Below are positions 10,424-54,037 of a stretch of DNA of 64,000 bases, one piece after another. Position 1 is the stretch's first letter. Every line of letters starts with the position of its first letter. Location of the stretch: contig JAJEKV010000111.1 of NCBI GenBank assembly GCA_021234155.1, positions 812,968-876,967 of the forward strand, written 5' to 3'. The position numbers and the translations under genes were made by a program. The DNA comes from Isoetes taiwanensis. Lineage: Eukaryota > Streptophyta > Lycopodiopsida > Isoetales > Isoetaceae. The notes beneath the pieces were generated by a model. The model did no database searches and was not told the DNA's origin. It saw only the letters and a list, made by a program, of their open reading frames with translations.

Positions 10424-11918
10424 TGTGACGTCCCCTATTCGTATACGATGCCCGCACCGTATACAAACAGGAGTTCATCCCCCGCACCAGCTCCACACTG
10501 ATACAGGGCCCTCCACATATCACTGTGACCGTCTAGAGTCCACAGTGGGAAGAGTGAAGGGGTCATTTTACCCCGTCTTCCTCAAGGCCTACCTAGCTGC
10601 GGAAGCGTAAACATACACGTTAGTAACATAACATCATATATCCACCTCGAAGGGTGGCACATCAACATCTGCATAGACAAAGATCAGCACAATACAAAGG
10701 AAGTTCCTACCCAAGGCTCGGAACCACGGGGGATGGGTGACAAGCTTGAGCCTCTCGAGTTCATTGCGCATGAGGGAATCATGACAATGGATTGGGGGGC
10801 ATAAGAACATGGCATTGGGTTGTCCACTCCATCCGCCCCCTCCCATTGCACACTTTGCGAGTAGGTTGAAAAGTGTTGGGACTGGATAGCCAGCCAGGGT
10901 GCATAGCCAAAGGGGCTATTCCCGGGTTACATCTCCCCCCAATCCCAATGGGGGCGGGTAGAGATCACTCCCTCCGAGAGATCTACATCTTGACCCAAGG
11001 TGACTAGAGGGCCACCGCCCTTATTGACTTAACCCACTTGAAGGTGAACTCCACCCCACGGGTGTCGAGCCCATGCCTTACCCACACTCGGTGGCAAGCC
11101 ATTAGACCTAGTCACTCGATCCCCAGGTAGGCCTTACACACCCGGAGGGATCGGTCAAGGGTCGAACACACGAACCTCATTCTAAGCCGGTCGGCCCCTT
11201 CACCCACAACCGGTGGGGTTCTTGTACCACAGGCGAAATCTAGTAATGCACTAAGAGGGACTATCTAGGAGCATCATCTACTAAGCTTCAAGTCTCTACC
11301 CCCTTCCCAATACAATGAGTCCACGAGAATACATCCGTCCATCATATCAACATAAGTAATAAAGAACTAATCTATCTCATAGAGTTAGGTTCTTTAGTTA
11401 GAGTCAATCTTGGCTATTAAGGGTGACTTAATAGGCTAAACCCTCTTTGGTTCGAAGAAGGCTGGAATAAGGTTTATGCTATTCAATCGACCAAATACGA
11501 TCCACGGTTCACTCCTCTCGATCCAAAGCGTCCATGTCTCCGTTACGCTTGAAATGCGGTCGGGAGGACGATCGACAAGGCTGGGGTGCACCTGGACGGA
11601 TCGTGGGAGTTGGAATTGACTCCTCGGTAGCGAATCGGAGCTCGGAAGGTCTGTGGGCGAAAAAGGGGAATGTTAGGGTTTGGTGCCTTATGTAGGCTAT
11701 CAGTTAGGTTTAGGGTTTCCATGACCCTTGGTCTACCTTTAATGGGTTAAAGGTCTAAAAGTGCGCGCATTGCTAAGTGTGCGCACCATTGCAAGTTGCC
11801 CCCTAGGGCGTCCTTGCTTGGGTGTATGTCGGCAGACCGTCGATTTGGGCGGCGTAATCTGGCGTGGTAACAATCTGGTATATCGTCTTGAGACCGTATA
11901 TCGTATTGGAACGTCACA
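10424..11918 (-). repeat. 3' LTR of chromovirus 1
   Basis: Begins TGTGACGTCCCC on the plus strand and ends GGAACGTCACA. It aligns end to end with 21,686-23,166. Differences include small indels and substitutions, many at CG in one copy versus CAG/CTG/CA in the other. Because the element is minus strand, this copy is the 3' LTR. Confidence 0.95.
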
Positions 11919-11931
11919 TTCTCCCCACCTT
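11919..11931 (-). other. Polypurine tract of chromovirus 1
   Basis: Minus-strand reading AAGGTGGGGAGAA lies immediately upstream of the 3' LTR, the position of the plus-strand DNA primer in Ty3/gypsy elements. Confidence 0.8.
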
Positions 11932-12797
11932 GAATTGATGCTGTCCGCAGCATCATGGGTCTCCCCACCTTGGGATCTTCTTAACCTGCAATCAACCTCA
12001 TGCATACCATATACTTATTATTATAGTCATACATTTAATAGGATTACCTCAAGGTAATATTTATAGAACATTATTATACTATTATTCAATCCAATGGTTT
12101 ATCACTTATGTCATTATAACAATAACTCCTAATGTCTCGGTTATTTATTATCTATACAATTATTGCTCGAAGTACTCCTTATTCCTTGCAACACATTATA
12201 ACAAAATTGTGTTGCAAGTCCTCGTAGTTCGACCTCCTGGCCCTCCGGAGCGCTCTATTGGCCTGCAGGTCAACACTACGTTAGTACCATTAATATTAAA
12301 AAAAAATTTGGTTATATGGTGACCACCCCACCTATCTACATGGATGCATGGCTAATCTCCCGGCGTAGGAAGAGGGTGAATCTTCCATTATGGCCGTGGA
12401 GACAGCGCCTATATGCCTATATGCCGCTCATGCCTACACCCTAGTTGCCCAGCGTGGCGGATAGGTCCTTCCCGTATATGGGGCGTGAAGGCCAGATTCC
12501 TCCTATCAAAGCATATATGGGGCTAGAGGTGCTTTTCCTATCAATGCATTCCTCAATGACCTCCTTTCTCTCGAGTTCGTCTACTTCCGTGGAACAGAAG
12601 TAGACTTTCTAAGCGGAACCGCGGTCATGCCTACATTGACATCACACCACGTCCTAGAGATCACCGTAGTGATCTCATCATCGGTAACAACGCATGCAAC
12701 CCTTACCTCATAGGTTGCATGCGTAGATTATACTTAACTAGATAAGCTATTAATCTACTCAAATCGACATGCCTGAGCCGATTTCTTCGGAGATGAC
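11932..12797 (-). other. Untranslated spacer between pol and 3' LTR
   Basis: About 870 bases without a supported frame. A G/C-rich block near 12,230 and an AT-rich block near 12,060-12,180 are visible. No further function is assigned. Confidence 0.4.
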
Positions 12798-14531
12798 CTA
12801 GTCCCATTGCTCCATAAACTGTGGGTACTGTTTTTCCAGATCTCTTTTAAGTACCCATGTTGCGTCTTCCACCGGTAAGTGTTTCCACTTGACCAAGTAC
12901 TGGATGAATTCGGATCTCCTTGTTTTCTTGAATGCTTTATCAAGGATTAGCTCTGGAACTATTTCCAATTGCTCTTCTGTCATCTCCAACATCGTTGGGG
13001 TATCCAAAATTTCTTCTGGATTGGGAGTATGCTTCTTCAGCAAACTCACGTGGAAGACTTTGTGGATCTTTAAGTGTGCTGGCAAGTCTAACTTGTAGGA
13101 TTGGTTACCCACTCTTTTGACTATTTTAAAGGGTCCAGCCCACCTTGGAGCAAGCTTCTTGCAATTCCCGATGCGGAGCTTCGCCTGCTTCACCTTGATC
13201 TTGAGCCACACATTGTCTCCAACTTCGAACTCTCTGACTGTTCGATGCTTGTCGGCGATGCTCTTCTGTCGACTCCTTGCTGCTAGGAGATATCCTCGGA
13301 CTTCTTCCACGAGCTGTTGCATGTCGCCCAACATTTGTTGCGAGACTTCCACTTTTGACACGGGATTGTGCCAAGTGTCTGGAGTTAGGCATTGGTAGCC
13401 GTAGTTGATCATGAACGGCGACATTTGGGATGATTCCTGCTTGGTGCTATTGTATGCAAATTCAACCAAGTGAATAAATTCCTCCCACATACCTTGTTTG
13501 TTCCAGACATAGTTTCGGAGCATGTCTTCCAATATTCTGTTGACACGCTCTGTTTGCCCATCCGTCTGAGGATGATAGGCTGTGCTCATGGATAGCTTTG
13601 TTCTAATCGTTGTGAAGAGATCCTGCCAGAAGGCACTAATGAACTTTGGATCTCGGTCGGAGATGATTTCCCTTGGCATCCCATGGAGTCTGAAGATCTC
13701 TTTGGTGAAGAGCTTTGCCGTATCAATAGCTGTGTCCGTGGTCCTACATGGCACAAAATGGGCCATCTTCGATAACTTGTCAACCACGACCATCAAGGCA
13801 TCCTTGCCTCTTACCGTCCTTGGCAGTCCTGTTATAAAGTCCATGCTGACTACCTCCCACTTAGCGTTTGGGACTGCTAATGGTTCCAGTGCCCCTGGTA
13901 TTCGGAGTTGTTCTGCCTTTGTTTGCTGGCATAGCTGACACTCCTTGATGTAGCGAGCTATCTGCTTCTTCATTCCCGGCCAATAGTAGCTGCTACGCAC
14001 TTTAAAATATGTCTTCATAAATCCTGCGTGGCCAGCTATTGGGCTGTTGTGGGTGTCGTGGAGGATCAACCTTCTTACTCCAGATGATTCCGGCATGCAC
14101 AACTTGTTCTTATGGTATAGGAGGTTACCTTCCTTCCTAAAGTTTTTGAAGGCTTGCCTCTCCTTATCCGTTCTCGCTTCCTTGCACATGCTTGCCCATA
14201 CTTCCTTGAAGTCGACATCTGTTGGCAATGTTTCTTCTATCTTTTTTCCGAAATCACTGAAGAGCGTCGAGATTGCATTGCAGTGTACCCTGGTTGTCAG
14301 TGGATGTCTTGAAAGCGCATCTGCTACCACGTTAAGCTTCCCGGGTTTGTAGACTATCTCAAAGTCGTACTCCTCGAGAAATTCCATCCACCTTCTCTGT
14401 CTTAGATTGAGATGTGGTTGTGTGAATACGTACTGGAGGCTCTGGTGATCAGTGTCCAACTGGAACTTCCTCCCTAAGAGGTAATGCCTCCAGATTCTCA
14501 ATGCCACGACAAGCGCTAGCGGTTCGGTCAT
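12798..14531 (-). CDS. Pol C-terminal part: RNase H end, integrase, chromodomain
   Basis: A 577-codon open frame. Residues 1-75 are the end of RNase H (DTDHQSL near 26-32, then VVADALSR). The integrase zinc-binding region has H161, H168, C198 and C201. The catalytic triad is visible as D231 (in SMDFITGLP), D292 (in ISDRDPKF) and E328 (in QTDGQTERVN). A GPF-type element lies near 466, and a chromodomain spans about 524-572 (LILDKAFKKTRRSEF, then YLVKWKHLPVEDATW). Chromodomains of this group direct insertion to chromatin with methylated H3. The integrase part is intact. The N-terminal half of pol is in other frames upstream, so a frameshift separates it from RT. The first Met is internal to pol, not a true start. 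Confidence 0.92.
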   Translation of the reverse strand: MTEPLALVVALRIWRHYLLGRKFQLDTDHQSLQYVFTQPHLNLRQRRWMEFLEEYDFEIVYKPGKLNVVADALSRHPLTTRVHCNAISTLFSDFGKKIEETLPTDVDFKEVWASMCKEARTDKERQAFKNFRKEGNLLYHKNKLCMPESSGVRRLILHDTHNSPIAGHAGFMKTYFKVRSSYYWPGMKKQIARYIKECQLCQQTKAEQLRIPGALEPLAVPNAKWEVVSMDFITGLPRTVRGKDALMVVVDKLSKMAHFVPCRTTDTAIDTAKLFTKEIFRLHGMPREIISDRDPKFISAFWQDLFTTIRTKLSMSTAYHPQTDGQTERVNRILEDMLRNYVWNKQGMWEEFIHLVEFAYNSTKQESSQMSPFMINYGYQCLTPDTWHNPVSKVEVSQQMLGDMQQLVEEVRGYLLAARSRQKSIADKHRTVREFEVGDNVWLKIKVKQAKLRIGNCKKLAPRWAGPFKIVKRVGNQSYKLDLPAHLKIHKVFHVSLLKKHTPNPEEILDTPTMLEMTEEQLEIVPELILDKAFKKTRRSEFIQYLVKWKHLPVEDATWVLKRDLEKQYPQFMEQWD

Positions 14532-14931
14532 GTGTGTCGGGTGCCAACGTTTTGGCGTTCATTTTCCTTGAGTCGTCATGCGCTATTACCCGCTCTTCTT
14601 GCATTAGCACTTTTTGTGGGCTATCTTGCTTCGTCCCGTTGCCACCAATTTGTCCTTTTCCGGGTCTGGCAGGGTCAAGACGGGAGCGGTTGTCAAGGCT
14701 TCCTTCAACAACTCAAATCCTGCTTGGGCTTTCTTGAGCCAATGGTCGGCCCAGTTTTTTACTTTCTCCATTTTTGTCAAGTCCGTCAGTGGGGCTGCTA
14801 TCTTTCTTGAAGTTCTTCACGAACTTCTGTAATACCGCTAGGCCAAGGAAACTTCCGACCTCGTGGGCGTTCTTTGGTGCTGGCCATTGGATTCTTGCTT
14901 TAATCTTGGCGGGAGTGCAGCCGAGATTCAT
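14532..14931 (-). pseudogene. Pol middle part: RT thumb and RNase H, frameshifted
   Basis: Fragments in shifted frames contain the post-RT motif ([21 protein letters not shown]) and pieces expected before RNase H. At least three frame changes lie between the RT frame and the integrase frame (near 14,920, 14,730 and 14,540). This makes the polyprotein discontinuous as sequenced. The matching region in the second chromovirus is in one frame. Confidence 0.75.
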
Positions 14932-16198
14932 ACGCTGAAATCACATGACCGAGGTATTCCACCTTCTCTGTTGCGAAGTGACACTTCGACAACTTGGCAT
15001 ACAACTGATGTCTCCTTAATTTCTCGAGCACCTTTCTCACGTGCTGAGTATGCTCTTCAATGGATTTACTGTACACCAGAATGTCGTCGAAGAATACTAT
15101 CACAAAGGTGTCCAAGTATTCTCTGAAGATGTCGTTCATGAGTCTCATGAACGTAGCTGGGGCGTTGGATAGCCCAAATGGCATTACAGTGAACTCATAA
15201 TGCCCGTATCTGGTTCTGAAAGCCATTTTGTGGATGTCCTCTTCCTTTATTCTGATTTGGTGGTACCCTGATCTTAGGTCGATCTTGGAGAAGACCTTTG
15301 CCCCTTGGAGTTGGTCCATCAAATTAAATCGACTTTTGAGTGCGTACTTGTTCTTGATGGTGTGCTTGTTCAATTGTCTGTAGTCTATGCACATCCTCAA
15401 GCTTCCATCCTTCTTCTTGACAAAGAGGATGGGTGCCCCAAATGGTGAGACACTGGGCCTGATAAACCCTAGATCGAGCAATTCTTGTAGCTGCTTCTTT
15501 AGTTCAGTAAGTTCATGTGTGGTCATTCTATATGGGGCCTTGCTTGTCGGCTTGGTCCCTGGTTCGAGTGCTATCTCACACTCTACTCCCCTGTAAGGAG
15601 GAAGCTTCTCGATCTCATCTGGAAAGAGGTCGTGGAACTCCTTAATCAAGTTGGCGATTGGCTTGGGTAACTTGCTGAGCCCCTTGTCTTCCTTGCTTTC
15701 TTCCGACTCGGGTTCCTCAATCTCGAGTTTGAAGATGTATGCTACCTTCTCGCTCTTTATAGATTTGAGCAGCTTCTTAACGGACATACATTGCATGATG
15801 GGGGTAACTTCTTTACCTGTGATCTCAATGGCCTTGCCGTCGGGTGTTGGGAAGGTCACCTTCCGCTTTCCACAATCAATGATAGCCCCGGCTGGTCCGA
15901 GGTACTCCATTCCAACAATCAGGTCGTATTTGCCAATGCCCATTACTTCTGCCCCCATCTGGATATTAATTCCTGGCAAGTCAATGTCGAAGTTGATTCT
16001 CTTCCCCGCTGTATGTCTTACTGCCCCGCTTGCCAAGACTACGGGCCTTGGTTTGGACTTTAGGGGTTTCAATTTCAACATTTCAACCATCCTCGGGGAT
16101 GCGAAGTTATGGCTACTTCCAGAGTCTATCAAGACTATGAAGGACTTGGCCTTTGCCTTCCCTACTGTGGTGATTACCTTATCTTTGGGTCTCTGCAC
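14900..16198 (-). CDS. Pol N-terminal part: aspartic protease and reverse transcriptase
   Basis: A 432-codon frame. The retropepsin-type protease has its active site at D25 in [13 protein letters not shown] linker of about 100 residues follows, then RT with [20 protein letters not shown] (about 243-262), [35 protein letters not shown] and the catalytic box FFDD (369-372, F in place of the more common Y). The frame runs out just after YLGHVISA, where a frameshift separates it from the rest of pol. All diagnostic RT residues I can check are present. It is closely related to the RT of the element at 54-64 kb. Confidence 0.92.
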
Positions 16199-16199
16199 A

Positions 16200-17160
16200 T
16201 TACGTATCTATAGCGGCGAAGATGTGGCACTCACCACCCTGAATGTAATCGCGTGCCTCCTCGCCCGTCCTCGTCGATGGAGTGTCCCATCCGCCCAACT
16301 CTGCTAGCGGGCTCATAACAAATGGGCGGTTCATTTGTTCGGTGGCCCGGTGGAAACATCTAAAAGCGGTAGCTTCTTCTCTATGCATTCTGCCTTTTCT
16401 CCTTGGGCATCGCGCAAGAAGGACCGTACCACTTTGGAGTAGTTGGAACCTTCTGTTTGTCCTTGAAGGACACCTGCTTTCTTTCCTGCTGTTTCCACTG
16501 GTTGCTATTATATGGGGACTTTGCTGGGCTTGGGCTGGCTGCCCTAGGGCTGTAGCTCCCTGTTGCTTTCCCTCTATCCTCGATAGTGAGGGTGCCTCTA
16601 CATGCCTTGTTCTGCGGCCCGATCCTTGCAAACTAATTGCCTTGGACTCAAGCTTGGACATTGTTTTGGGGTCTATTGCCCTTACGAGTTTCACGAGTTC
16701 CTCGTTCGACCCTTCTATGTAGCTTTCCACTGCGTGTTTCTCTTTCGGTTTAGGCACATCTGTCTTAGCCTCATGAACTCTTGGTTGTACTTACGCGCCG
16801 AGTCTTGTACCCTGCTGCAATCGTAAAAGCTGGCGCATCATGTTCGACTTGTGTTCACGGGAACATAGTGTTTCTTAAAGCTTTTGAGAACTTCTTAAAT
16901 CGGCATGCGTCCTGCTCAACCCATGGGCTTTGGCATAGCCCTTCCACCATATCGTCGCGGCCCCTTTCGGGTTGGCCGCCGCCACCACCGCCTTTGTCTT
17001 TGTCCTTCATACCATAGGCATTGCCGTGCTCGCTCATTTAGATCCAGCCATGCCTCCGCCTCTAGGCGGATCTGTTCTCGCCCAGAAAGCTGTTCAAGTT
17101 CAGGGCTTTCCACACATTGCCCGTCTTTGAGTCCACCTTTTTACGGTAATCTAAGGCCTT
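16200..17160 (-). pseudogene. gag of chromovirus 1, frameshifted
   Basis: Pieces in different frames match the gag of the second chromovirus. Near 16,740 a phrase KPKEKHAVESYIEGSNEELV with VRAIDPKTMSKLESKAISL corresponds to the EKRAVEGYIEG and VKAIDPKSVAEAEAKALSL phrases there. Near 17,030-16,860 are KDKDKGG and a CRFKKFSKAL phrase. No single frame covers gag and no CCHC zinc knuckle can be read. The gene is the structural nucleocapsid precursor of the element. Confidence 0.7.
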
Positions 17161-17685
17161 AGTGTCCTTGTGCTGCCGTCTCTCTGGTCCGGCTTGCTCA
17201 ACCCTTTTTTTTCAGACTTCGAGTCGGGAAGTTGAGCTTGATTCGGAGGTCTACGTGCTGGGGACCTCCTTCTCTTACTCCTTCTCTTGTCCTTCCCGAC
17301 TTTGGGGCGTCGTTTAATGGCCGGATGATGCTTGGGCTGCTAGTAGGGCCTTTATCTGGTCCAGTGCTGTTTCAAGATCTGCGACAACTCTTCTTCAGTG
17401 TCATGGGGCCATATCCTTGAAGAGGTTCCTTTGAAGTGGTTGGTGTCGGGGAGTTTCTTCATCTCTTGGGCCTCTGTTTTGCTCGATTTGTTCGTTGTTC
17501 CCTTTCTGCATACACAATTGGTCATGGTTGTACGGTTAGTTTTGTTTGCTCTTTTGCATTATATGTGTTGTTGGTATAGTTGCGGAGCAAAATATATCAA
17601 CAAAATGTTTAAAAATGCACAAGAAGTTATATTTATTTTATATAATATGTTTACTACAAAGGACTCCTGGTATCAAGATTCCTAA
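17161..17685 (-). other. Spacer between unknown gene and gag
   Basis: About 520 bases of AT-rich then basic-coding sequence. Short minus-strand pieces are Arg/Lys/Pro-rich and could be the decayed N-terminus of gag. Nothing firmer can be said. Confidence 0.35.
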
Positions 17686-19221
17686 CTATTCTTGATAACG
17701 CCGGTAGGATGGATTGTCCTCTAGGAACTTCTTCACTTGGGCTGTTCCCACTGAATGACCCAAGTTCCTAAGGACGTTGACTGAAGATCCACCCTGCAAA
17801 GCTCTCGCCAAGTCTTCGACTCTGCGGTCGGACGTATAAGCTGCGGTCACCGCCAGTCTTCCCTGCCGCCTGTAAGGTATGGCGAAGTCGAAAACATCGA
17901 GTGCTACCGCTCTCTTCACCAGGATGGCATACTCGGTGTTGAGGGGTAACCGCGCATGCCGGCCAAATCCTGAGAGCGCAATTAGCATCGATACTCCTTC
18001 CTCGCCTCTGGGGGTGAATTTGCGGTGAATTACCGCTATTCTTCCATCCATCAGCAGGGGAAGGTAATAACGCAATGATCTGTCGTTGCGAGACGGGTCC
18101 TCGGCCACTCGGTATCCAGCTCTGTGTCTGCCTGCAAAGTCATCAACCTCCACCGTGGTGAGCTCCCTGTAGTCTCTGACTGTTGCTGAAGCCCTCCTGA
18201 GGTCGAATTCGCCTCTTCTCTCCGGGGGAGGTGTTGCTGAAGAGCTTGCCGTTAGGATGTTCGAGGCATAGCGGATCCCCATCACATTCTGTAGGGCAAG
18301 GAACTCTTCCTCGTCGGTAGTTGATTTTTACTGCAGTCGCCTCCATAATCACGCACTCTTTTTGTAGGCTTGGATGTGGAGGTCGACTCTCCGTGTAAGT
18401 GTCGGCTTCCCTTACTTGGGTGGGAAGTCGGATGCTCCTCGGGCGATAAAGTCGTCCAGTCCGTTCTTCCGGAGTTAGTGCGGCAACTCTTGGTCTGTAC
18501 TCCCTTTCCCTGCACTCGGGAGGTTTTGGATGTCGCTTAGAAGCGAAAACTCCTGCGCCGACCATAATGGGGGCTAGGCTTGTAATGCCTAGCCCAAGGG
18601 GTGCAGCGACTCTAAGAGTTTGCGGCTTCTCTCGAAGTCTTGCCACTCTGCTCTGCGCTTGTCGCCGCTCCTCCCATTTGGTCGAGCTTCGACATAGTCT
18701 TCCTCCTCCTCTCGATTCTGTTAAATCCGAGTCCTCCTCTTGTTTTCCTTCCTGCTCCTGTTCATACTGCGTAAGGAGCCGTTGTTTTGCTGCTATGGCT
18801 AATGGGTCTACGTCCATGGGGGAATGGAGGTTTCCCCCATGGTGTTCTCGGCACGGTGGGTGAGAAAGATTGCCAAGGCAGTATTGAAGGAGAAGTACTT
18901 GGTCCTATTGACAGTTAGGACCATTGGCTCAGGTGTGCGTTGCGCCTTATTTGTCAGGTATTTGGCGATGTTTGGAACATCGCCTAATGCTGCTTGCAGG
19001 GATTGTCTAGGGACAAAGTAGCCTATGCAAGGGGGGAGTTGCACTAGCGCTGGTTCTACCCTAGCTTGGAACCCAGACAAGACTCTACTGTAAGCTAGGG
19101 TTGCGTGCAAGGTTGCTTGGACATCTACCTCCTTCCTGAAGATATGGAAGATTTGGTCGACGTCGGCCTCGGCAGCATGAGCGCTGGCGCTGTACCATCT
19201 GCGAAAATCAGAGGTTGCCAT
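17686..19221 (-). CDS. Unknown protein between H3-like gene and gag (three overlapping frames)
   Basis: Three successive open frames, 19,221-18,808, 18,817-18,143 and 18,285-17,686, probably were one gene of about 510 codons. The relative near 52.2-52.5 kb reads in one frame across the first junction: GESSIQSFNLEPL there matches GETSIPP followed by MDVDPL here. Recognisable blocks are ALAIFLTHRAENTMGETS, then an acidic Gln/Glu stretch, VAAPLGLGITSL, LPTQVREADTYTESRPP, and a C-terminal part with RYYLPLLMDGRIAVIHRKF. The second chromovirus has matching blocks in the same place (FALAILMDQHVEDEI near 63.07 kb). I do not recognise a domain or catalytic motif. It is not an envelope-like protein as far as I can see, since no strong membrane segment is present. 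Confidence 0.6.
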
Positions 19222-19448
19222 TGATTAAATGCGGAAGAAGGTATCAAACGGTTGCAAGAAAAGGGAAAAACCCTAATTTTTGGATGACTTGGAAAATTCC
19301 TGGGGTTGGGTAATTCTAGTCTATCTGAGGTCAAAAATGGAAATTTGAAGACTAGATGAGATGTTTAAACAAGGCTAGATTACCTAAAAGATGCTATACA
19401 ATAGGTTGAAGATGATTTGGACAAGTCCTGGTGAAGAAATGGTAGGAG

Positions 19449-19515
19449 GTCTCACAGCTTGCGCCTCGCTTCAAAACTAACATTTAGTTCTTCGACCAGG
19501 CGCGAGCTGTGAGAC
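19449..19515. repeat. Conserved hairpin 1 (67 bp)
   Basis: GTCTCACAGCTTGCGCC at the left pairs with GGCGCGAGCTGTGAGAC at the right (one mismatch). The centre holds AAACTAA/TTAGTT. It is one of four related hairpins in the element and lies downstream of the H3-like gene. Confidence 0.9.
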
Positions 19516-19648
19516 ATCAGTCTCATTTCGATCAAAAGGTGTCCAGTTTGGATAAACTAAGGCTGTAAGGGTGATGGGCTCATCAAATCAGACAGAGTTG
19601 ACCCCTTATTTGGTCGATTTGGAGCTGTTTTGGTCAAGTTTGGGCGAG

Positions 19649-19715
19649 GTCTCACAGCTTGCGCCTCGCTTCAAAACTAAATTTTAGTTTTGCGACCAGG
19701 CGCGAGCTGTGAGAC
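19649..19715. repeat. Conserved hairpin 2 (67 bp)
   Basis: Nearly identical to hairpin 1, exactly 200 bases away. The central palindrome AAACTAAATTTTAGTTT is perfect here. Confidence 0.9.
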
Positions 19716-19861
19716 ATCACGTTTTTCGGTCTGCAAATGTCCTATTTCACTGCAATAAAAGCTAAGACTTACTAACTTGCCCTAATTAATCCAGCTCATG
19801 CAGTTAAGGTACACAAAATTGCTTTATATTACAAAATTTTCAATTATTTACAAAAAAGGTT

Positions 19862-21014
19862 CTAAGGGCGTTCTCCCTTTATACGGCTCGCAAGATACAT
19901 GTCTTGTCGCATTAGGGTTACTCGCTTGGCGTGAATAGTGCAAGCTGTTGAATCTTCAAAATGTTGCACTATCTTTGCTTCAGCCGCCTCTTGCATTGCC
20001 AGCAGCGCCTCATCCGTGACTCTGAAGTCTGTCCTGTAGGCCTGCATCACTTCTCGCACTAACCGAGCAAAGGGGGCTCGGGGAATTAGAAGACCGTAGC
20101 TGCATTGGAAGTGCCTAATCTCCCGCAGCGCTCTCCTCTCCACCTCCTTCCTGTCAATCTTCTTCTTGGGTGGTGGCTTGGGAACCTTGGGCTTTGGGGG
20201 TGGCGGCTTTAAGGTCTGTTGCTTCGTTGGTCGCCCTCCCTCGATGATCCTAACTCTGTTTTCTTCATAGTACTTGCTGTAGGCTTCCCATTTCTTCATA
20301 TAAGCTTCGTGCTCCCTCATCTTTCTTTCGTATATCTTTACTCTGTCGGTGACGTAAGCTTCACGTGCAGGTCGTGGCTGTTTCTTCTTCCTATCCCAAA
20401 GCCGGTACTCGGGGTTTTACGCACTTGATCCTGTTTGGAGTGCGATTACGGCGTTGGCTGTTGGGTTATCACTATCTTGGGATTGGGCGTCTTTTAGCTT
20501 CCTTTTGGGCTGCTCCACGGCTTTGCCCTTCTTCTTCTTCTTCTCCTCGGCCGCCTTCTGTTCCTCCTCTTCCCTTTTCCTCTTCTTCTGTTCCCTCTTC
20601 TTCTCCCGGCGTTCATACTTCCTAATAAACCTTGCGAGATCTGCTTCCTCTGCTGGTTCGAGTCTCGGCTCGCTCTGCTCCTGCTGCTCCTCCGCTTCTT
20701 TTTCTCGAATCCAGGCTTCGACTTGTTCCTCAATGGTCGGCTCTGGCGTCGGCATCCTCTGTTCCTCTCGGGCCTTGGTTCTCTTTTCCCTTTGCGCTCC
20801 CTCGTCCTCTTCCTCAATCACTTCCGTCCCTGCCTCCGAATGTACTTCCTCCTCTTGATCTTGCTCATTCGAAGGTTCTCCCTCGCTCGAAGAAGATTGA
20901 CCGTTAGTGTTGAGGAGACGGCTCTGAGCATCTTGCCCGAATCGTGACGGCATCAGCGGCGCTGGTTGCTTCGCCTGGGCGGGCTTTCCTCGCGGTCTGC
21001 TTGGTCCGTGCCAT
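19862..21014 (-). CDS. Histone H3-like protein with long acidic insert, retrotransposon-borne
   Basis: The minus strand opens at 21,014 with ATG then ARTKQTARK, identical to the H3 N-terminus through K9 (S10 replaced by Ala). One base extra just after K9 shifts the frame. The next frame, from about 20,980, runs through a Ser/Glu/Asp-rich acidic segment and a Lys/Glu coiled-coil-like segment to a TAA at 20,417-20,419. It then continues in the same frame to 19,862. The final 90 residues are an H3 core: [59 protein letters not shown] and the KRVTLM phrase recall CENH3, but loop 1 has canonical H3 length. Total span is about 384 codons, so the insert between tail and core is roughly 270 residues. 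As sequenced it needs one frame correction and stop readthrough. It lies between two pairs of hairpins, upstream of gag. Confidence 0.85.
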
Positions 21015-21225
21015 GTTTGACGGATCGTTAATCGGATGTCAGCCCCAAAGATCGCCTTAGTGTGGGGGGAGTTTTCTTTCTAGGCTAGAGCGGGAAAAAT
21101 GAGGGGGTCTACATTTATTTATAGCTTGAGAAATTTTAGGTCAAAATTCAAGTTGCTTAGTTTATCATGCCAAGGCACCTATTTAATTGAAATCTACACT
21201 TATTTCAGACTTTTTCTACCTAATG
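21015..21225 (-). other. 5' leader of H3-like gene
   Basis: About 210 bases between the first H3-like ATG and the nearest hairpin. No upstream frame in phase was found. It is AT-rich. Confidence 0.35.
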
Positions 21226-21290
21226 GTCTCACAGCTTGCGCCTCGCTCCAAAACTAAAGTTTAGTTTTTAGACCAAAGCGAAATGTGAAT
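21226..21290. repeat. Conserved hairpin 3, degenerate right arm
   Basis: The left arm GTCTCACAGCTTGCGCC and centre AAACTAAAGTTTAGTTT are intact. The right arm is eroded (GACCAAAGCGAAATGTGAAT), so the stem no longer closes fully. Confidence 0.8.
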
Positions 21291-21413
21291 CTCGTTCTTT
21301 TCTAGGTTATTTAGGTAGTTAAAACATGCTATTCTAATTAATTCCTACCTTAGAATTAGCTTTACCACATTACTTTTCTCAAATTCATCATATTTTGGTG
21401 ATCTTGGCTCGAT

Positions 21414-21480
21414 GTCTCACAGCTTGCGCCTCGCTCCAAAACTAAAATTTAGTTCTGCGACCAGGCGCGAGCTGTGAGAC
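21414..21480. repeat. Conserved hairpin 4 (67 bp)
   Basis: Both arms as in hairpins 1 and 2. It lies between the primer-binding site and the H3-like gene. Confidence 0.9.
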
Positions 21481-21672
21481 CACCTCACTTGGAAAATTTT
21501 TGGCTTATTCTTTTTAATCTTATTAAATTCCAACTCGCTTAATTGTTACTAGCTTAGCATAACTACAAAAATGAGAAAAAAAAATTTCCCACTTTTCGAG
21601 GCTTGAGGACCCTATCAAGTTAGTACTACTGGGAGCATGGCCAGTGCTTTGCTCTTGGTCTCCAAGAACATA

Positions 21673-21684
21673 GCTCTGATACCA
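21673..21684 (-). other. Primer-binding site, tRNA-iMet
   Basis: The minus strand reads TGGTATCAGAGC, the standard plant retrotransposon site complementary to the 3' end of initiator methionine tRNA. It lies one base inside the 5' LTR. Confidence 0.95.
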
Positions 21685-21685
21685 C

Positions 21686-23166
21686 TGTGACGTCCCCTAT
21701 TCGTATACGATGCCCGCACCGTATACAAACGAGTTCATCCCCGCACCAGCTCCACACCGATCTGGGGCCCTCCACATATCAATCGTGGACCGCCTAGAGT
21801 CCACGATGGGAAGAGTGAAGGGGTCATTTTTTACCCCGCCTTCCTCGGGGCCTACCTAGGCTGCTTGAGGCGTAAACATACACGTTAGTAACATAACATC
21901 ATATATCCACCTCGAAGGGTGGCACATCAACATCTGCATAGACAAAGATCAGCACAATACAAAGGAAGTTCCTACCCAAGGCTCAGACACAGGGATGGAC
22001 TGACAAGCTTGGGCCTCCAGAGTTCATTGCGCATGAGAATCATGACAATGGATTGGGCTGGCATAAGAACATGGCATTGGGTTGTCCACTCCATCCGCCC
22101 CTCCTGTGCACACTTTGCAGAGTAGGTTGAAAAGTGTTGGGACCTGACTGTAGCCCGCCGGGTGCATAGCCAAAGGGGCTATTCCTGGGTTACATCTCCC
22201 CAGTCCCGATGGGGCAGGTAGAGATCACTCCCTCCAGAGATCTACATGCTGACCCAAGGTGACTAGAGGGCCACTGCCCTTATTCGACTTAACCCACTGG
22301 AAGGTGAACTCCACCCCACGGGTGTCGAGCCCATGCCTTACCCACACTCAGTGGCAAGCCATTAGACCTAGTCACTCTGATCCCCGGTAGGCCTTACACA
22401 CCAGAGGGATCGGTCAAGGGTCAGAACACGAACCTCATTCTAAGCCAGTCTGGCCCCTTCACCCACAACCAGGTGGGGTTCTTGTACACAGGCCGAAATC
22501 TAGTAATGCACTAAGAGGGACTATCTAGGAGCATCATCTACTAAGCTTCAAGTCTCTACCCCCCTTCCCAATACAATGAGTCCACAGAATACATCCGTCC
22601 ATCATATCAACATAAGTAATAAAGAACTAATCTATCTCATAGAGTTAGGTTCTTTAGTTAGAGTCAATCTTGGCTATTAAGGGTGACTTAATAGGCTGGA
22701 ATAAGGCTGGAATAAGGTTTATGCTATTCAATCGACCAAATACCTGATCCCTGGTTCACTCCTCTCGATCCGAAGGCGTCCATGTCTCTGTTCTGCTTCG
22801 AAATGCGGTCGGGAGGACGATCTGACAAGCTGGGGTGCACGGACAGATCGTGGGAGTTGGAATTGACTCCTCAGGCGCGCGAATCGGAGCTCGGAAGGTC
22901 TGTGGGCGAAAAAGGGGAATGTTAGGGTTTGGTGCCTTATGTAGGCTATCAGTTAGGTTTAGGGTTTCCATGACCCTTGGTCTACCTTTAATGGGTTAAA
23001 GGTCTAAAAGTGCGCGCATTGCTAAGTGTGCGCACCATTGCAAGTTGCCCCCTAGGGCGTCCTTGCTTGGGTGTATGTCGGCGTACACGTCGACTGGGCG
23101 GCGTGTACGCGTGACGGTGCAATACGGTATACGTCTTGAGACCGTATATCGTATTGGAACGTCACA
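21686..23166 (-). repeat. 5' LTR of chromovirus 1
   Basis: Begins TGTGACGTCCCC and ends AACGTCACA on the plus strand. It is the partner of 10,424-11,918. It neighbours the PBS, so it is the 5' LTR of this minus-strand element and would hold its promoter. Confidence 0.95.
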
Positions 23167-23607
23167 GCCGTCCATATCTAACCACCGTCAACACAATGAA
23201 CCACATCTTACATCTGTCGTCCGTGACAGAATCGAACAACAACAAGGAGAACAGATCCTGCCGTTTGTCACAGAATCAACAAGGAGAACAGATCGAAAAT
23301 TGCCTGCCGTTTGTGACAGAATCCAACAACAAAAACAGAACTATCACAGAATCGAACTACAGAAACAGATCTGAAATTGCAATACAGAATGAAAGTAAAG
23401 TAACATCCAAACATAAGATTGAAAATAAAACAGGGTTTATGATAACACAGCATTCATGAAAATCCCATGTACAAAGCTTGCTCTTCAAGTCACCCAAAGC
23501 AACACAACTCCACATCCTGCTGAAACATGGCTTCACACACAAGCAACCAAAGCAAGAAAACTGTACAAACAATAAGAGGTTCCATCACGACAGAAGACAA
23601 AGTCTGC

Positions 23608-23922
23608 TCATGCTCTCATAGTGCCAGGATGAGCAGCTGTAAGTTCATGAAGCTGCCGCAGCTTAGACAACAGCATGGCTCTGACATGATTTACCTCGCC
23701 TCTGAACACTCTTCTGTCCCGCACTGAAACCTCAATGTCTGGATCATCTACTGCAACCAAATCCTCCTCAAGGATCTCTACAGCATTAGTTAAAGCAACA
23801 GACAACGCATGCACAATTCGCCAAGTCTGCGATTTCATCCACTCGACATCAAAAAACGAAGCAACAAACACAGGAGCCACTGCTTCTACGACACGCCTCT
23901 CCACTGGTTCAACGTCCAACAC
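23608..23922 (-). CDS. Second ORF of HUH transposon copy A
   Basis: A 104-codon frame downstream of the nuclease gene. Its C-terminal two-thirds (HALSVALTNAVEILEEDLVA, then FRGEVNHVRAMLLSKLRQLHEL) is conserved in copy B with mainly conservative changes, so it is probably real. It looks all-helical. It could be a 3' exon of the nuclease gene: a good acceptor (TTGTGTTGCAG) precedes it, but joining to the nuclease frame yields a stop. Function unknown. Confidence 0.5.
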   Translation of the reverse strand: MLDVEPVERRVVEAVAPVFVASFFDVEWMKSQTWRIVHALSVALTNAVEILEEDLVAVDDPDIEVSVRDRRVFRGEVNHVRAMLLSKLRQLHELTAAHPGTMRA

Positions 23923-24065
23923 AATGAACGTGGAGAACAGAGGAGGAGGAGTGGCATCCCTCTCTCCTCCGGCTGCTCCGCCATCAACATCCGCCCCTGC
24001 AACACAAGATTCAAGTGATTAGCAAGCTGCAATGTGAACATGAACAATCAATTCAAAAGCTCATA

Positions 24066-25805
24066 CTATCCAATATCAAACGCAGGATCCGGCATATCTA
24101 AAGGAATATAGTCCTGGAAAAAGGGCAGGCTGCCATCTACAGGTGGAATAAAAGCGGGAGTTTCGTCACGATACTTCTCATCTGGAGGATAATCGACTAT
24201 GTCTACTCCATCATCGTCATCACCACTCCAATTTTCATCCTCTTCCAGCATTGTGTCCAGCTTGTTTAGCTCCGCACATGCCAGAGCATCATCCCAAAAT
24301 CTATGGCGCCTTTTACCCACTTTCTCTATGGGTTCTTCCCCGGGGGGCAATCCATAAATGATAGAAGCATGCCTCGGATCCAGGGTAAGTCTCCACGCAG
24401 CCTCTACTCTATAGTAACTGATTCTGGCTGAATTCCAAGGGAGGACCCACGCGCTCGACAAAAAGAACTTCCCAGTTCGCAACATCCGTGCAACCGTGTA
24501 GCACAGACTGGGAGTTCTCTGACGTCTCCCATGATATAATACAAAGTGGCTGCCACGACTGAGCAAATTTCTGTTATTCAAAATCACGCAATGTTTGATC
24601 TCACCCACACCGTAAAGTGCATATAAGTTCTTACCACGCTCAAGCTGCTCAGCAGTCACCTCCTTCATATGATTCGTATAATGCAATTTCCCAACATCTT
24701 TCAGACAGTAGTCGAGCATTCCTTCAAAACAGTGTAAACGCGTGTCCTTCAACGCTTTACACATAATCACTCCTCCTGGCGGGCGATGACCAGTTTGTCC
24801 AATCTAGAGCCTGCCTCAGACGAATATTCACAGCTGCTGGTGAGGTTGCAGCAACTCGAAATACACACTGCAGGTGTAAATGATCAAGTTCAGAACCCCG
24901 TTCTACAGCCACCATGCCTGCAAGGCAATCTGAGTCCAAGAACCTGCACATTCTAACGTAATGCTCTTCTACGATATTAGACCCGCTGATAGTTACTGTC
25001 ACACTCACGTCCAGCACGCTAGTTCTAGCTTCCCTCACTTCCTTCTGCATGCTTTTCCTCATCTCCTTCTCCTTTCTCTCCATACATTTCTTGTCTTCTC
25101 TCTCCTTCTTGAGTCTCTCCCGCTCTTCCTTCCTTTCTCTCTGCTTCTTCTCTCTTTCCACCTGCTTGTTCTCTCTCTCCACTTGTTTAAATCTTTTCCT
25201 CTCCTCCCTCTCAAACTGCTTTCTCTTCTTCTGCGCATCCCTCTGTCATTCTGCTCTCTAATTACAATGCTACTGTCCTTCCTTGGCCTGCCTCTCTTCT
25301 TAGACGGCTCACACACATTGCAGGCATCAGCTAGAAGACGCAAATTATATTCACCTCTCTTGGGTGACAGATGGAGCTGCTCAGAAGGCACCTCAACAAA
25401 TTTACTACGATGGAATATGGGATGGGAATCAAGGCACATGGAGTTATGCTCAGGCACAAAATGTATGGGCACAGCAGAAGGCATGCAATTCAATTCATGA
25501 TAATCATGGTTATGCTCAGCCACATTATTCATCTGCCCAGCAGAAGACAAGTAATCTAACCTCCCTCTAGCAACTCCAGCGCTGCTGCTCTCAGGAGGCC
25601 TCCCCTCCTCATCCAGGCAACCATTCATGCCCTGCATGCCCTGTTCCGATCTAACACTCCTAGCAAATCTCTTCAACATAGAAAGACTGTGGAACATACC
25701 TGTGTTGCCCTCCACAGATCCTTGGCTGCTCGGCATGGTGCTCAGATAGAACAAGAAACATACAAGCAGTTGAAAGATCCCAGTCTCTTTTCGGCCCAGC
25801 ATCAT
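24066..25805 (-). pseudogene. HUH nuclease (Replitron-type transposase), copy A, frameshifted
   Basis: Same protein as in copy B but split into three frames: 25,805-25,059 (N-terminus through the AT-hook KKRGRPRK), 25,182-24,757 (Lys/Glu-rich region and HUH motif DHLHLQCVF), and 24,770-24,066 (catalytic tyrosine motif DYCLKD to the C-terminal FDIG). Two frame changes break it. Unlike copy B, it reads through the position where copy B has an inserted stop (HASIIYGLPPGEEPIEK), so it preserves the longer C-terminus ending in an acidic tail. Confidence 0.8.
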
Positions 25806-26684
25806 CGCCAGGCATCACCAAATCCTCCCAGCCCGGAGCTGGTCTTCCTGGCATCGCCCATTCCATGCCATCAGTTCACGCTCATGTTCTTGCTATTTCA
25901 GGTTCCTCGCATCCCGACGTCCATTATCGTCCACAGCCCAATCGCAGGGCCAACAAAATTTACAGCAAAAAAAATTTGCCCCCACCCGACTGCTATATTC
26001 ATTGGGAAACCTACTCGCTCTACCCATCCTTACCTAATCGCTCTACCTAATTTCATTCAAAAAAAATTCCACCGTCCATATTTAACCATCATCGACGCAA
26101 TCAAGCACATCTCAACCTTACATCTGCCATTCATCACAGAATCGAACAACAACCGTTTTATCAGAGAATCCAACAAGGAGAACAGATCGAAAACTGCCTG
26201 CCGTCTACCACAGAATCCAACAACAAAAATAGATCGATCATTGCCTGCCATCTATCACATAATCCAACAACAAAAACAGATCGAAAATTGCAACACGGAA
26301 TGAAAGTAAAGTTATCGATCCAAACATGAGATTGAAAATAAAACAGGATTTATGATAACACAGCATTCATGAAAATTCCATGCACAAAGCTTGTTCTTCA
26401 CATCCTGCTCAAACCTCGCTTCCCACACAAGCAACCAAACACCTGATCCAAACATTACACAGAAAATAAGACACGATTTCTAATAATTGCATTCATTGGA
26501 AATAAGACAAGATTTCTGATAACATAGCATTCATGAAAATCCCATATACAAAGCTTGTTCTCCAAGTCACCCAAAGCAACACAACTCCACATACTGCTGA
26601 AACTTGGCTTCCCACACAAGCAACCAAAGCAACAAAACTGTACAGACAACAAGGGGCTCCATCACGACAGAAGATAAAGTCTGA

Positions 26685-27075
26685 TCATGCTCGCGTAGTG
26701 CTAGGATGAGCGGCTGCAAGCTCATAAAGCTGCCGCAGCTTAGACAAGAGCATCGCTTGGACATGATTCACTTCCCCTCTAAACACTCTTCTGCCCCGCA
26801 CTGAAACCTCAAACTCTGGATCATCTACTGCAACCAAAGCTTCTTCTAGGATATCTACAGCATTAGTTAAAGCAACAGACAACGCATGCACAGTTCGCCC
26901 AAGTCTGCGATTTCATCCACACAACATCAAAAAACGGAGCACAAACGTAGGAACCACCCCTTCTACGGCACGCCTCTTCGCATGTTCAATATCCAACGCA
27001 ATGAACGTAGAGAACGGAGGAGGAGGAGTGGCATCCCTCTCTCCCCTGGCAGCCCCGACATCAACATCCGTCCCT
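26685..27075 (-). pseudogene. Second ORF of HUH transposon copy B
   Basis: The C-terminal 68 codons (26,891-26,685) match copy A closely, including FRGEVNHVQAMLLSKLRQLYEL. The N-terminal part (to about 27,075) is in another frame, so the copy is frameshifted near 26,900. The same acceptor-like TTGTGTTGCAG lies just upstream. Function unknown. Confidence 0.5.
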
Positions 27076-27142
27076 GCAACACAAGATTCAATTGATTAGG
27101 AAGCTGCAACGTGAATAACAACAAACAATTCAAAAGCTCATA

Positions 27143-28878
27143 CTATCCAATATCAAAGGCAGAATCCGGCATATCTAAAGGAATATAGTCCTGGAAAAAG
27201 GACAGGCTGCCATCTACAGGTGGAATGAAAGGGGGAGTCTCCTCATGATACTCCTCATCTGGAGGATAATCGACTATGTCTACTCCATCATCGTCAGCAC
27301 CACTCCCATTTTCATCCTCTTCCAGCATTGCGTCCAGCTTATCTAGCTCCGCACATGCCAGAGCATCATCCCAAAATCTATGGCGCCTTTTACACACTTT
27401 CTCTATGGGCTCTTCCCCAGGAGGCAATCCATAAATGACGCATCACACGTCCTTGATAGAAGCATGTCTCGGATCCAGGGTAAGCCTCCACGCAGCCTCT
27501 ACTCTATAGTAACTGATTCTGGCTGAATTCCAAAGGAGGACCCACGCGCTAGATAAAACGAACTTCCCAGTTCGCAACATCCGTGCAATCGTGTAGCATA
27601 GACTGGGAGTTCTCTGCCTTCTCCCGTGATATAACACAAAGTGGCTCCCACGAATGAGCAAGTTTCTGTTATCCAGAACCACGCAGTGTTTTATCTTACC
27701 CGCACCGTACAGTGCATATAAGTTCTTACCACGCTCAAGCTGCTCAACAGTCACCTCCTTCATGTGATTCCTATAATGCAATTTCCCAACATCTTTCAGA
27801 CAGTAGCCGAGCATTCCTTTAAAACAGTGTAAACGCGTGTCCTTCAGCGCTTTACACATAATCACTCCACCTGGTGGACGATGGTTTGTCCAATCTAGAG
27901 CCTGCCTCAGACAAATTTTCACAGCTGCTGGCGAGGTTGCAGCAACTCGAAATACACACTGCAGATGTAAATGATCAAGTTCAGAACCCTGCTCTACAGC
28001 CACCATGCCTGCAAGGCAATCTGAGTCCAAGAACTTGCACACTCTGACGTAATGATCTTCTACTATATCAGACCCGCTGATAGTTACTGTCACACTCACG
28101 TCCAACACGCTCCTTCTAGCTTCCCAATGCATGCTTTTCCTCATCTCCTTTTCCTTTCTCTCCATATGTTTCTTGTCTCCTCTTTCCTTCTTCAGTCTCT
28201 CCCGCTCTTCCTTCCTTTCTCTCTGCTTTTTCTCTCTTTCCACCTGCTTGTTCTCTCTCTCCACCTGTTTAAATCTTTTCCTCTCCTCCCTCTCAAACTG
28301 CTTTCTCTTCTTCTGTGCATCCCTATCATTCTGCTCTCTAATTACAATGTCACTGTCCTTCCTTGGCCTGCCTCTCTTCTTAGACGGCTCACACGCATTG
28401 CATGCATCAGCTAGAAGACCCAAATTATATTCACCTCTCTTTGGTGACAGATGGAGCTGCTCAGAAGGCACTTCAACAAAATTACTACGATGGAAATTGG
28501 GATGGGAATCAAGGCACAAGGAGTTATGTTCAGGCACAAAATTCATGGGCACAGCAGAAGCATGCAATTCAATTCATGGGAAACATGGTTATGCTCAGCC
28601 ACAACATTCTTCAGCCCAGCAGCTCCCTCTAGCCTCCCTCTAGCAGCTCCAGCGCTACTGCTCTCAGGAGGCCTCCCCTCCTCATCCAAACAACCGTGCA
28701 TGCCCTGCATGCCCTGCCCTGATCTAACACTCCTAGCAATTCTCTTCAATATAGAAAGACTGTGGAACATACCTGTGTTGGCCTCCACAGATCCTTGGCT
28801 GCTCGGCATGGCGCTCAGACAAAATAACAAACGTACAAGCAGTTGAAAGATGCCACTCTCTTTTCGGCCCAGCAGCAT
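27143..28878 (-). CDS. HUH nuclease (Replitron-type transposase), copy B
   Basis: The main frame is 28,567-27,443 (374 codons). Residues 63-70 form an AT-hook (KKRGRPRK). About 80-150 is a Lys/Glu/Arg-rich coiled coil. The nuclease domain follows: SVTVTISG strand (158-165), H199-L-H201 metal-binding pair, and Y255-x-x-K258 catalytic motif (GYCLKD). These are the three Rep/HUH motifs with a single tyrosine. No Walker A follows, so no SF3 helicase. A further domain of about 110 residues is conserved with copy A. An 18-base in-frame insertion near 27,438 brings a TGA; the rest of the C-terminus lies at 27,427-27,143. An N-terminal piece (28,878-28,543) is in another frame. The enzyme would nick and join single DNA strands in the nucleus. 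Confidence 0.8.
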
Positions 28879-29089
28879 CGCCAGGCGTCACCCAATCCTC
28901 CCAGCCTGGAGCTGGTCTTCCTGGCATCGCCCATTCCATGCCATCAGTTCAGGCTCATGTTCTTGCTATTTCAGGCCCCTCTCATCCCGACGTCCAGGTT
29001 TGTCGACAGCCCAATCGCAGGGCCAACAAAATTAACACCAAAAAAATTTCCCCCCCCACCCGACCACTAGATTCATTGGGAAACCTACT

Positions 29090-29658
29090 CAAACAAAAGT
29101 CCAAACGCCCTAAAACGAAACCTATCCTTATACATGCCTAAAACGTTGCACACGCCACAGCTGACGTGGGTATTGAAGGCAAGTAAGTTTGAGTGACGCG
29201 GTTGTCCAAATGATAGCTTAGAATTGCACGAAATCGTGCATCTCAAAGTTAGGATGAGATTCCACTGCCGCGGACGGCAGTTCTCTGTTCCTGCCTTAAA
29301 AAAAATGAAACTGCCCCTGCTCGATTCCACTACAAAAAACTTCTCCGGCTGAATTGAAGTCGTGGAGCAAATCCGTCGGTGTTGAGGAGCACGTGTCAAA
29401 GATCTAGATCTGGTAATATCTTCCCACCGAATTGTCAAGGTCCATCCCCTGATAGTTATCCAGCAGTTCGTGGCTTCCCCAGCCTCTCCCCAACGCTCCA
29501 CATCATCTCCCCAAACCTAAACGCCTCTCCCCAATGCTCCACATCAACTTCCCAAACCTAAACTACCGCTGTTTGTAGAATCAGAGAGCAACTCTAGAAG
29601 TTTGTGATCATTCGATAACTCCAAAAGTTTGTAATCATTCGATTTGATTGGCTTACTA
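29090..29658. other. 3' flank of the small gene, unassigned
   Basis: No supported gene. A repeated CCCCAA(C/T)GCTCCACATCA phrase occurs at about 29,498 and 29,532, with another small repeat at 29,597-29,640. Confidence 0.4.
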
Positions 29659-37285: not shown

Positions 37286-37627
37286 CCACGAGAATCGACT
37301 GCACAGAGATGGTTTTTTGGCTCTACAGTTTGGGCTATCCAGAACCGGCTGCAAGTGACGGTCCTAGAGTTTATTTTTGTGCCACTGCAGATTCGGCCAC
37401 CAGAGACGGTTCCTGCACTTTTGGGTCTTGCTTTCGGATTTTGGCTCTTGCTCATCGGGATCCATGTGCATATTTTTAAACAGCAAACTTTAAGATTGGT
37501 AGAATGTGCTATGCTTGTTGCCACATGCTGTTTGGCTTATTTTTCTCAGCACCTTGCTCTGTTTGGAGAGGCTCCCCATCTCATGGAAGACTTCACCACA
37601 GGCAATGGGAAGAAGCAACCCAAGTAA
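37214..37627 (+). CDS. Hydrophobic ORF of array unit 1
   Basis: 137 codons. Residues about 55-115 hold two hydrophobic segments: PALLGLAFGFWLLLIGIHV, then RLVECAMLVATCCLAYFSQH after a KQQ turn. The C-terminal part is polar (HLMEDFTTGNGKKQPK). Spacing of the segments recalls the first two membrane spans of TMEM18-type proteins, but the identity is too weak to call. The same frame is kept in all three units. It may be one exon of a larger gene, a TE fragment, or non-coding. Confidence 0.3.
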   Translation: MSLQFNSVMFSSCHFPFCWFSLWLPRESTAQRWFFGSTVWAIQNRLQVTVLEFIFVPLQIRPPETVPALLGLAFGFWLLLIGIHVHIFKQQTLRLVECAMLVATCCLAYFSQHLALFGEAPHLMEDFTTGNGKKQPK

Positions 37628-38241
37628 GACTGAACGCAGGTTTACTTACACCATTTGTCATGGCAAGAGCTGGCAACATTTACTTTGCAACAGCATGGCA
37701 AGAATTTGTCTTTATGATCCTAAGTGTGGCTATGTCCTTCAAGTCTATATAATTGAAATGAAGTTAGTATATATTTGAAGAGCATGGCTTTCGTGTATGA
37801 AGAACATATGAGCCAGGATAGCTTCCATATTTAACCCGTGTTCAGGCTGCATAGTGGAGAGCAATTTTGGGACAGTTTTTGGAATACTTTCATTCATAAG
37901 TATGCCAAGGTGGTAGTTGAATGAAGCAGCAAGGTCTTTGTTCTGCTCCAGTTGCACTAGACGATTCAGACAGTTTGCAGATTTGTTGTACCTCAAGTTG
38001 TTGCGGATTTATGTTACCTCAAAATTATTGTTTTGTGTTCCCAGAATTTTTCGTCTGATACAAATCCGTCTGCCGGTGCCGTCTTGTTACATTCACATAG
38101 CAGTTTCAGCATTATTTGTGTTCATTAGCATGTCCAAGATTGGTTGCTTACGTTGGGAACCAGTTATTGGTGGAGTTGTTTGAGGAGATGGACATGTTTA
38201 GAATTTGTGATATCAAGTTGGGTACTGTTCATTGGTAGAGT

Positions 38242-38691
38242 GGTGCTAAGATCGATGGTGGATCAAATTTGTGGTTAATCAAGCATAACGATTCTATCTA
38301 AAGCCCTGGAACAAAGATTTGATGATTATTTCCAGATAAGCATTCTTACTTGCATTTCTTCTTTCCGCAGTAATAAGTGTTTTGGTTACTTTTATAGCTT
38401 TTCTTAACCTAGCTTTACCGCGACCATGGCTTCTTAAGACATATATCTCTTGGTTATTTTGGTGCTAAGATCGATGGTGGATCAAATTTGTGGTTAATCA
38501 AGCATAACGATTCTATCTAAAGCCCTGGAACAAAGATTTGATGACTATTTCCAGATAAGCATTCTTACCTGCATTTCTTCTTTCCGCAGTAATAAGTGTT
38601 TTGGTTACTTTTATAGCTGTGCATTTTCTTAACCTAGCTTTACCGCGACCATGGCTTCTTAAGACATATATCTCTTGGTTATTTGCAAGCG
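38242..38691 (+). repeat. 219-base tandem duplication in array unit 1 only
   Basis: GGTGCTAAGATCGATGGTGG begins at 38,242 and again at 38,461. The second copy continues with GTGCATTTTCTTAACC as in units 2 and 3. Absent from those units, so it arose after or independently of the array. Confidence 0.85.
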
Positions 38692-39145
38692 TATCTTACT
38701 ATGAGTTATTTTCTCCAATTTCCTCTACTTTCTATAGCTTTTGCAACATGGTGGAGGTGAAGGAGGAGATTGCACTTGCTCAAGTTAGTAATATTTGTGC
38801 AGGTTTTTATTTTGGAAAGACCATATAGAACAATATGTACTGTTGGAAGGTTTTCACGATATTTGATAATTCCTTTTATGATGACCTGGTTTTGGACTCC
38901 TCTTTGAAGAAGAGATGGAATTATTGGTATTTTAGTTGATAGATAGCAAGAGAGTCTGTCATATGTGCCAATGATTTCATATTTGATCCTATGCCTAACT
39001 TCTAGATAATTTCTTCAACCTATTTTAAGCTATGGATAGTTTGTTTTGGCTAGCATGCAAGAAATTGATCAACAATAGAGCTCTGTGTTAGAATTGTCTA
39101 GGCCTTCTTATGGTGTTTCAGAGAAGTTCCTTCCTCCTCGGATGG

Positions 39146-53885: not shown

Positions 53886-53917
<32 letters not shown>

Positions 53918-54024: not shown

Positions 54025-54037
54025 TACTTATAGGTTA

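Follow-up and report, generated by a model that had tools for sequence, protein, structure and literature searches.

In a stretch of the Isoetes taiwanensis genome, a bounded chromovirus on the minus strand (element A, 10424–23166) carries the coding sequence of a genuine histone H3 core, located after the 5′ LTR and ahead of gag. All positions refer to the window, the whole 64,000-nucleotide stretch of DNA analysed here. Comparisons of sequence establish that the gene is an H3 gene, place such a core inside two diverged elements (A and B) and reveal that A has retained the residues of the H3–H3 interface together with most of those that contact DNA. Among the matches listed in a literature search that covered titles and the openings of abstracts, with preprints outside its scope, none described a plant LTR element with a histone gene. 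The nearest precedent is the H3 captured by hAT transposons of Dothideomycetes, which are likewise mobile elements that carry and multiply an H3 gene, as set out in the excerpted text of PMC6710886; those are fungal DNA transposons, whereas here the carrier is an LTR retrotransposon, of which two diverged members have an H3 that has been remodelled.

The bounded chromovirus and its H3 gene

The first-pass annotation had described a fully bounded LTR element, and the boundaries hold. The 5′ LTR (21686–23166, minus strand) and the 3′ LTR (10424–11918, minus strand) are 91% identical over 1523 columns including gaps, they have TG...CA ends, and a 5-bp target-site duplication, GCCGT, flanks the element on both sides. 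Just inside the 5′ LTR lies the primer binding site TGGTATCAGAGC (21673–21684, minus strand), the sole exact match among hits allowing up to two mismatches, which we take to be that of the initiator tRNA-Met. Reading 5′ to 3′, the H3 gene (21014–19862) is followed by a second extra reading region, ORF2 (19221–17686), and then by gag, the protease and reverse transcriptase, and the RNase H, integrase and chromodomain. The gag region (about 16200–17402) has broken frames, and two of its pieces match element B (9.8e-07 and 6.3e-10). The protease and reverse transcriptase (14900–16198; Pfam RVP_2 3.2e-08, RVT_1 1.3e-38) and the RNase H, integrase and chromodomain (12798–14531; Pfam RT_RNaseH, Integrase_H2C2, rve and Chromo, the last at 8.3e-10), all on the minus strand, stand in the order typical of chromoviruses (Ty3/Gypsy), and the chromodomain is C-terminal in the integrase. 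Element A is likened, at the level of the group, to the plant chromoviruses whose chromodomains are of group II (Reina, Tekay, Galadriel). It shares with them the LTRs, a tRNA-Met-type primer site, gag, protease, reverse transcriptase, RNase H and an integrase whose C-terminal chromodomain retains the second cage residue alone; it differs from them in having an H3 gene and a second reading region before gag.

ORF2 (minus strand) consists of three pieces in differing frames and gave no match of weight in Pfam or NCBIfam. Related remnants occur on the plus strand at 50368–50472, 50604–50783 and 52249–52398, within a unit that is both duplicated and decayed, so that ORF2 is distributed more widely than element A. 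A scan of viral contigs returned no relative, and scans with Rfam (at gathering scores) and for tRNAs were empty.

The surroundings of the H3 gene are marked by a strong 67-base hairpin (−42 to −47 kcal/mol), of which there are three copies, one upstream of the gene (21414–21480) and two downstream of it (19649–19715 and 19449–19515), as well as a partial copy near 21226, where one arm matches at 21226–21246; no further match was found in the window with up to three mismatches. The hairpins were dropped as a candidate family feature, none having been found in element B's part of the window. Directly beside element A, at 23418–29090, there are two copies, about 90% identical, of a unit with a Replitron-type HUH endonuclease (Pfam Replitron_HUH 5.3e-19 and 2.2e-06), a clue that points to a seedless plant as host and, with less likelihood, to a green alga. 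Further along, 37286–47252 is a tandem array of three units, each about 3.25 kb long, which are roughly 95–98% identical and contain inner 263-base repeats.

The histone core of element A was identified on the minus strand by the histone-family search that the first-pass annotation had proposed. The linker and core occupy 19862–20413 (core 19862–20140), in the same frame as the insert that precedes them, and match Pfam PF00125 at 2.2e-28; the best PDB match is Histone H3.3, chain 7ux9_E (E 2.2e-27), with 52 of 90 residues identical. We take this H3.3 chain to be from a plant. The linker–core frame runs for 183 codons without a stop, which none of 2000 first-order Markov sequences reproduced; for the insert, which is purine-rich, 19 of 2000 did, a weaker result. 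Predicted structures were too weak for a fold search (AlphaFold mean pLDDT 53.6 for the linker and core of A with B, and 45.9 for the cores alone), and the H3 assignment consequently rests on sequence.

Upstream of the core, the tail frame (20904–21014, minus strand) opens with a 10-residue H3 tail motif that starts at 21014, continues with ARPGEATS... and meets a stop after 36 codons. A six-frame search found the full motif nowhere else, and the shorter patterns ARTRQ and TARKA at two other places. The insert, first acidic and then rich in Lys and Glu (20417–20953, minus strand), closes with a stop. An intact K4/K9 tail, the charged insert and the H3 core had all been read from the sequence at the outset, and all are present in that order; but the match to H3 is limited to the nine residues A1–K9, the rest of a normal tail (K14, K18, K23, K27, K36) being gone, and the arrangement is not one open frame. 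The tail lies in frame 0 and the insert and core in frame 1, with a single stop at 20417 between the latter two, so that as assembled the tail is out of frame with the core.

Element B and the origin of the histone cores

A tblastn search of the window with the H3 of element A found one other place, at 63909–63640 on the minus strand (55.6% identity over 90 residues, E 1.2e-26). This is the H3 core of element B (63640–63999, minus strand; Pfam PF00125 1.7e-35; PDB H3.3 8.1e-42), which is identical to the H3.3 of 7ux9 at 72 of 90 residues and whose gene runs past the window end, placing its tail outside view. The core frame of B is open, while its pol (56334–59652, minus strand), located by tblastn with the pol of A, is diverged and broken as assembled. 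A 3′ LTR (TGTGACG...CGTCACA; 54038–55647, minus strand) is preceded by the purine run AAAGGAGGGGAGAA. No copy similar to 54038–55647 was found between 60 and 64 kb, for which reason the 5′ LTR of B is taken to lie beyond 64000 and the H3 gene to lie inside the element. Adjoining the 3′ LTR of B, the stretch 52700–54037 has short LTR-like matches to the LTRs of both elements and is possibly a further LTR of the family.

Both places in the window that match the pol of A thus have an H3 core. The two elements are well separated: their protease–reverse transcriptase proteins share 59% identity over 398 residues, with a best reverse transcriptase block of 81.5%, and their integrase segments 40–43%. 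In A the H3 stop and the WWKGYA motif of gag lie 2.91 kb apart (19862 to 16949); the corresponding interval in B measures 3.15 kb (63640 to 60486). Both cores are without the HR(Y/F)(R/K)PGTV block that precedes ALREIR in all six cellular H3 genes fetched for comparison; these six come from contigs of bacterial genomes, all of them MAG records, and are taken to be eukaryotic contaminants, and six other protein pieces of element A had no match in the same contigs. The two cores have V46R and Y54F in common, and P is the last residue of both; one of the fetched cellular H3 genes (L004) likewise has F54. At 13 sites A and B both differ from H3.3, and they have a residue in common at two of these, which is close to chance.

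Phylogeny left the cores ungrouped. Forcing A and B together cost 6.46 lnL (p-AU 0.10) in a tree with provisional CENH3 rows and 0.62 lnL (p-AU 0.30) in a tree with the fetched H3 genes, and neither tree rejects the pairing. The region between H3 and gag has no detectable relation between A and B, and a match of ORF2 of A to B made by eye failed a shuffle test. The dN between A and B is 0.47 in the H3 core and 0.16 to 0.38 in four reverse transcriptase and protease blocks. Taken together, the sequence comparisons favour one origin of the two cores over two by about two to one; because F54 occurs in a cellular H3 and the H3 differs more than the reverse transcriptase, we do not set this at about three to one.

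Two independent captures would account for the same cores if that of A came from CENH3, leaving it CENH3-like, and that of B from ordinary H3, a history we consider unlikely but worth serious weight. Over 16 sites at which plant CENH3 mostly differ from H3 (the CENH3 sequences throughout being provisional reference rows), A has the majority CENH3 residue at six (F54, P63, A65, T85, L89, S107) and, with R121, a minority residue at one more, and B has the majority residue only at F54. Identity to the provisional rice CENH3 is 55/91 for both, against identities to H3.3 of 52/90 for A and 72/90 for B, and A sits with CENH3 in the tree with support of 90/87, unstarred, again with provisional rows. 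The interaction of chromovirus integrases with CENH3 is reported in a 2025 review (PMC12477314). Against this, neither A nor B has the longer loop 1 of the provisional CENH3 sequences, A ends in KGERP as H3 does and not in the GG(R) end, and the grouping of A with H3 is not rejected (p-AU 0.081), A being a long branch; the matching place and the same loss of the RPGTV block in A and B favour one origin over separate captures. The reading of A's core as a CENH3 was kept solely as a rival. Relative to cellular H3.3 and CENH3, with which they share the H3 core and, for A, several residues of plant CENH3 (provisional rows), the element-borne genes differ in lying inside LTR elements without RPGTV and, in A, in the long charged stalk between tail and core.

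The presence of H3 in a second, diverged chromovirus speaks against a one-time passenger, though separate captures keep some probability, and the element may have retained its histone for a long time instead of carrying it by chance. The first-pass annotation had proposed an element gene that other copies of the family should also have, and element B does have an H3 core at the matching place; this conclusion at the family level rests on two elements within one 64-kb window.

Retained residues, frame breaks and possible decay

The differences between the cores of A and B fall at codon positions one, two and three in the numbers 40, 26 and 60 over 89 codons, with synonymous sites saturated; if the captures were separate, this pattern includes constraint on the host H3. 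On a list of bundle and contact residues that was drawn up after the sequence had been seen, element A keeps all eight H3–H3 bundle residues and seven of nine DNA-contact residues, plus one K to R exchange; the 15 of 17 kept on that list compare with 52 of 90 overall (P 0.004). The nine of nine residues kept in the tail of A would have a chance of 0.007 if the tail had changed at the rate of the core. In element B two of the bundle residues have changed (E129 and D130).

How far the core of A could have come by drift was gauged by neutral simulation, in which 38 amino-acid changes took about 72 substitutions; 10.75% of the simulated sequences were stop-free and 9% had exchanges as mild as those of A, so that the core of A, taken alone, is compatible with drift. 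The retained contact residues (15/17) and tail residues (9/9) of A, as read from its sequence, stand against it.

These figures bear on the proposal that both genes are passengers, host H3 that was captured and now decays as a functionless hitchhiker. Plant LTR elements commonly capture genes, according to the excerpted text of PMC6696364. The amplified hAT copies of H3 are all inactivated in one fungus, another having putatively functional ones, and in P. fijiensis 90% of H3-like sequences are truncated and the amplified copies inactivated by RIP, as given in the part of PMC6710886 that was available. Both A and B are broken as assembled, and neutral drift of the core without a stop is possible at the simulated frequency. 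The proposal has to contend with an H3 gene at a matching place in two diverged elements, with core frames that are open in both although the gag and pol frames are broken, and with the contact residues kept in A; we judge it improbable, if by no means negligible.

The breaks themselves may in part be errors of the assembly. The LTR pair of element A differs by 53 substitutions and 49 indel events, compared with indel-to-substitution counts of 8 to 21, 8 to 26, 11 to 215 and 24 to 178 in four other repeat pairs of the window, and its LTRs have identical stretches of up to 204 bases. Of the 41 clusters of differences between these LTRs, 36 are close to a CG or CHG site, the background figure being 47%. 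The same bias is seen in the other pairs (11/19 vs 22%, 16/27 vs 18%, 70/103 vs 53% and 39/68 vs 28%), and it would also result if methylated cytosines had decayed. From the excess of indels we infer that many indels of element A are base-calling errors at methylated sites, and the H3 frame break may likewise be a base-calling or assembly error, a suggestion that draws on the indel excess.

The chromodomain and possible roles of an element-encoded H3

The cage positions of the element A chromodomain are I, W and L, in place of the Y, W and Y of HP1, and of the three aromatics that characterise a group I, H3K9me-reading chromodomain just the second is present; the broken chromodomain copy of element B has the same I, W and L. 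This is the pattern of group II. Chromodomains of that group, at the C terminus of the integrase, keep only the second aromatic of the cage and fail to bind H3K9me, and their partner in heterochromatin is described as unknown, as reported in the excerpted text of PMC2832683. The earlier proposal that the chromodomain reads methylated H3 tails accordingly fares unevenly: it agrees with the general statement, in the portion of the 2025 review at hand (PMC12477314), that integrase chromodomains recognise H3K9 methylation, and it conflicts with the I, W, L cage and with the group II report. With a group II cage, it becomes less likely that the integrase uses a methyl cage to read the tail of the element's own H3; the H3 may yet act as a partner through another contact.

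The same cage weighs on a further reading, in which the free tail and stalk, and not a nucleosome, do the work, the K4/K9 tail diverting writers or readers of histone marks or docking the integrase. What makes such a decoy or mimic conceivable is that A1–K9 alone, and exactly, is kept of the tail, and that a stop splits the tail and insert from the core in A, so that two products are possible. The reported failure of group II chromodomains to bind H3K9me (PMC2832683, as excerpted) speaks against docking through the cage, and the core keeps H3–H3 residues that a decoy would not need; the tail of B lies outside the window. We regard this reading as rather improbable. That the H3 does not belong to the elements at all, being an assembly artefact or a neighbouring host gene, is very improbable, and for A close to refuted: the LTR indel excess does suggest assembly errors, but A is bounded by LTRs and a matching 5-bp duplication and B, on one side, by its own 3′ LTR, and both cores are far from cellular H3 (52/90 and 72/90).

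The explanation that we prefer, tentatively and with somewhat less than even confidence, is a kept H3 cistron of single uptake that yields an element-specific H3 variant able to enter nucleosomes. A chromodomain LTR lineage would have taken up a cellular H3 gene, perhaps of the H3.3 type, before A and B split, and would have retained it as a cistron that follows the 5′ LTR and precedes gag; its product, if expressed, would be an H3 variant specific to the element. A's version would present nine K4/K9 tail residues at the end of a long charged stalk, the stalk having taken the place of the remaining tail and of the RPGTV block. The element H3 would pair with host H4 and enter nucleosomes, and the chromatin so marked would most likely steer integration or soften the silencing of new copies. 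The more specific proposition that a chromovirus of a seedless plant builds its own H3 variant, with the K4/K9 tail on its charged stalk, into chromatin in order to address its group II integrase or to influence how its copies are silenced is one that we hold to be unlikely.

Chromatin-targeted retrotransposons are known to read the chromatin of their hosts; here the element brings a histone of its own. If the H3 has been kept, nature would here have set up a test of the way in which group II chromodomains locate heterochromatin and of the ability of an element to mark its own chromatin. The elements would also show a histone evolving outside the constraint that acts on the host's own H3. Were the proposition of the preceding paragraph true, a retroelement would be writing the chromatin that it then uses.
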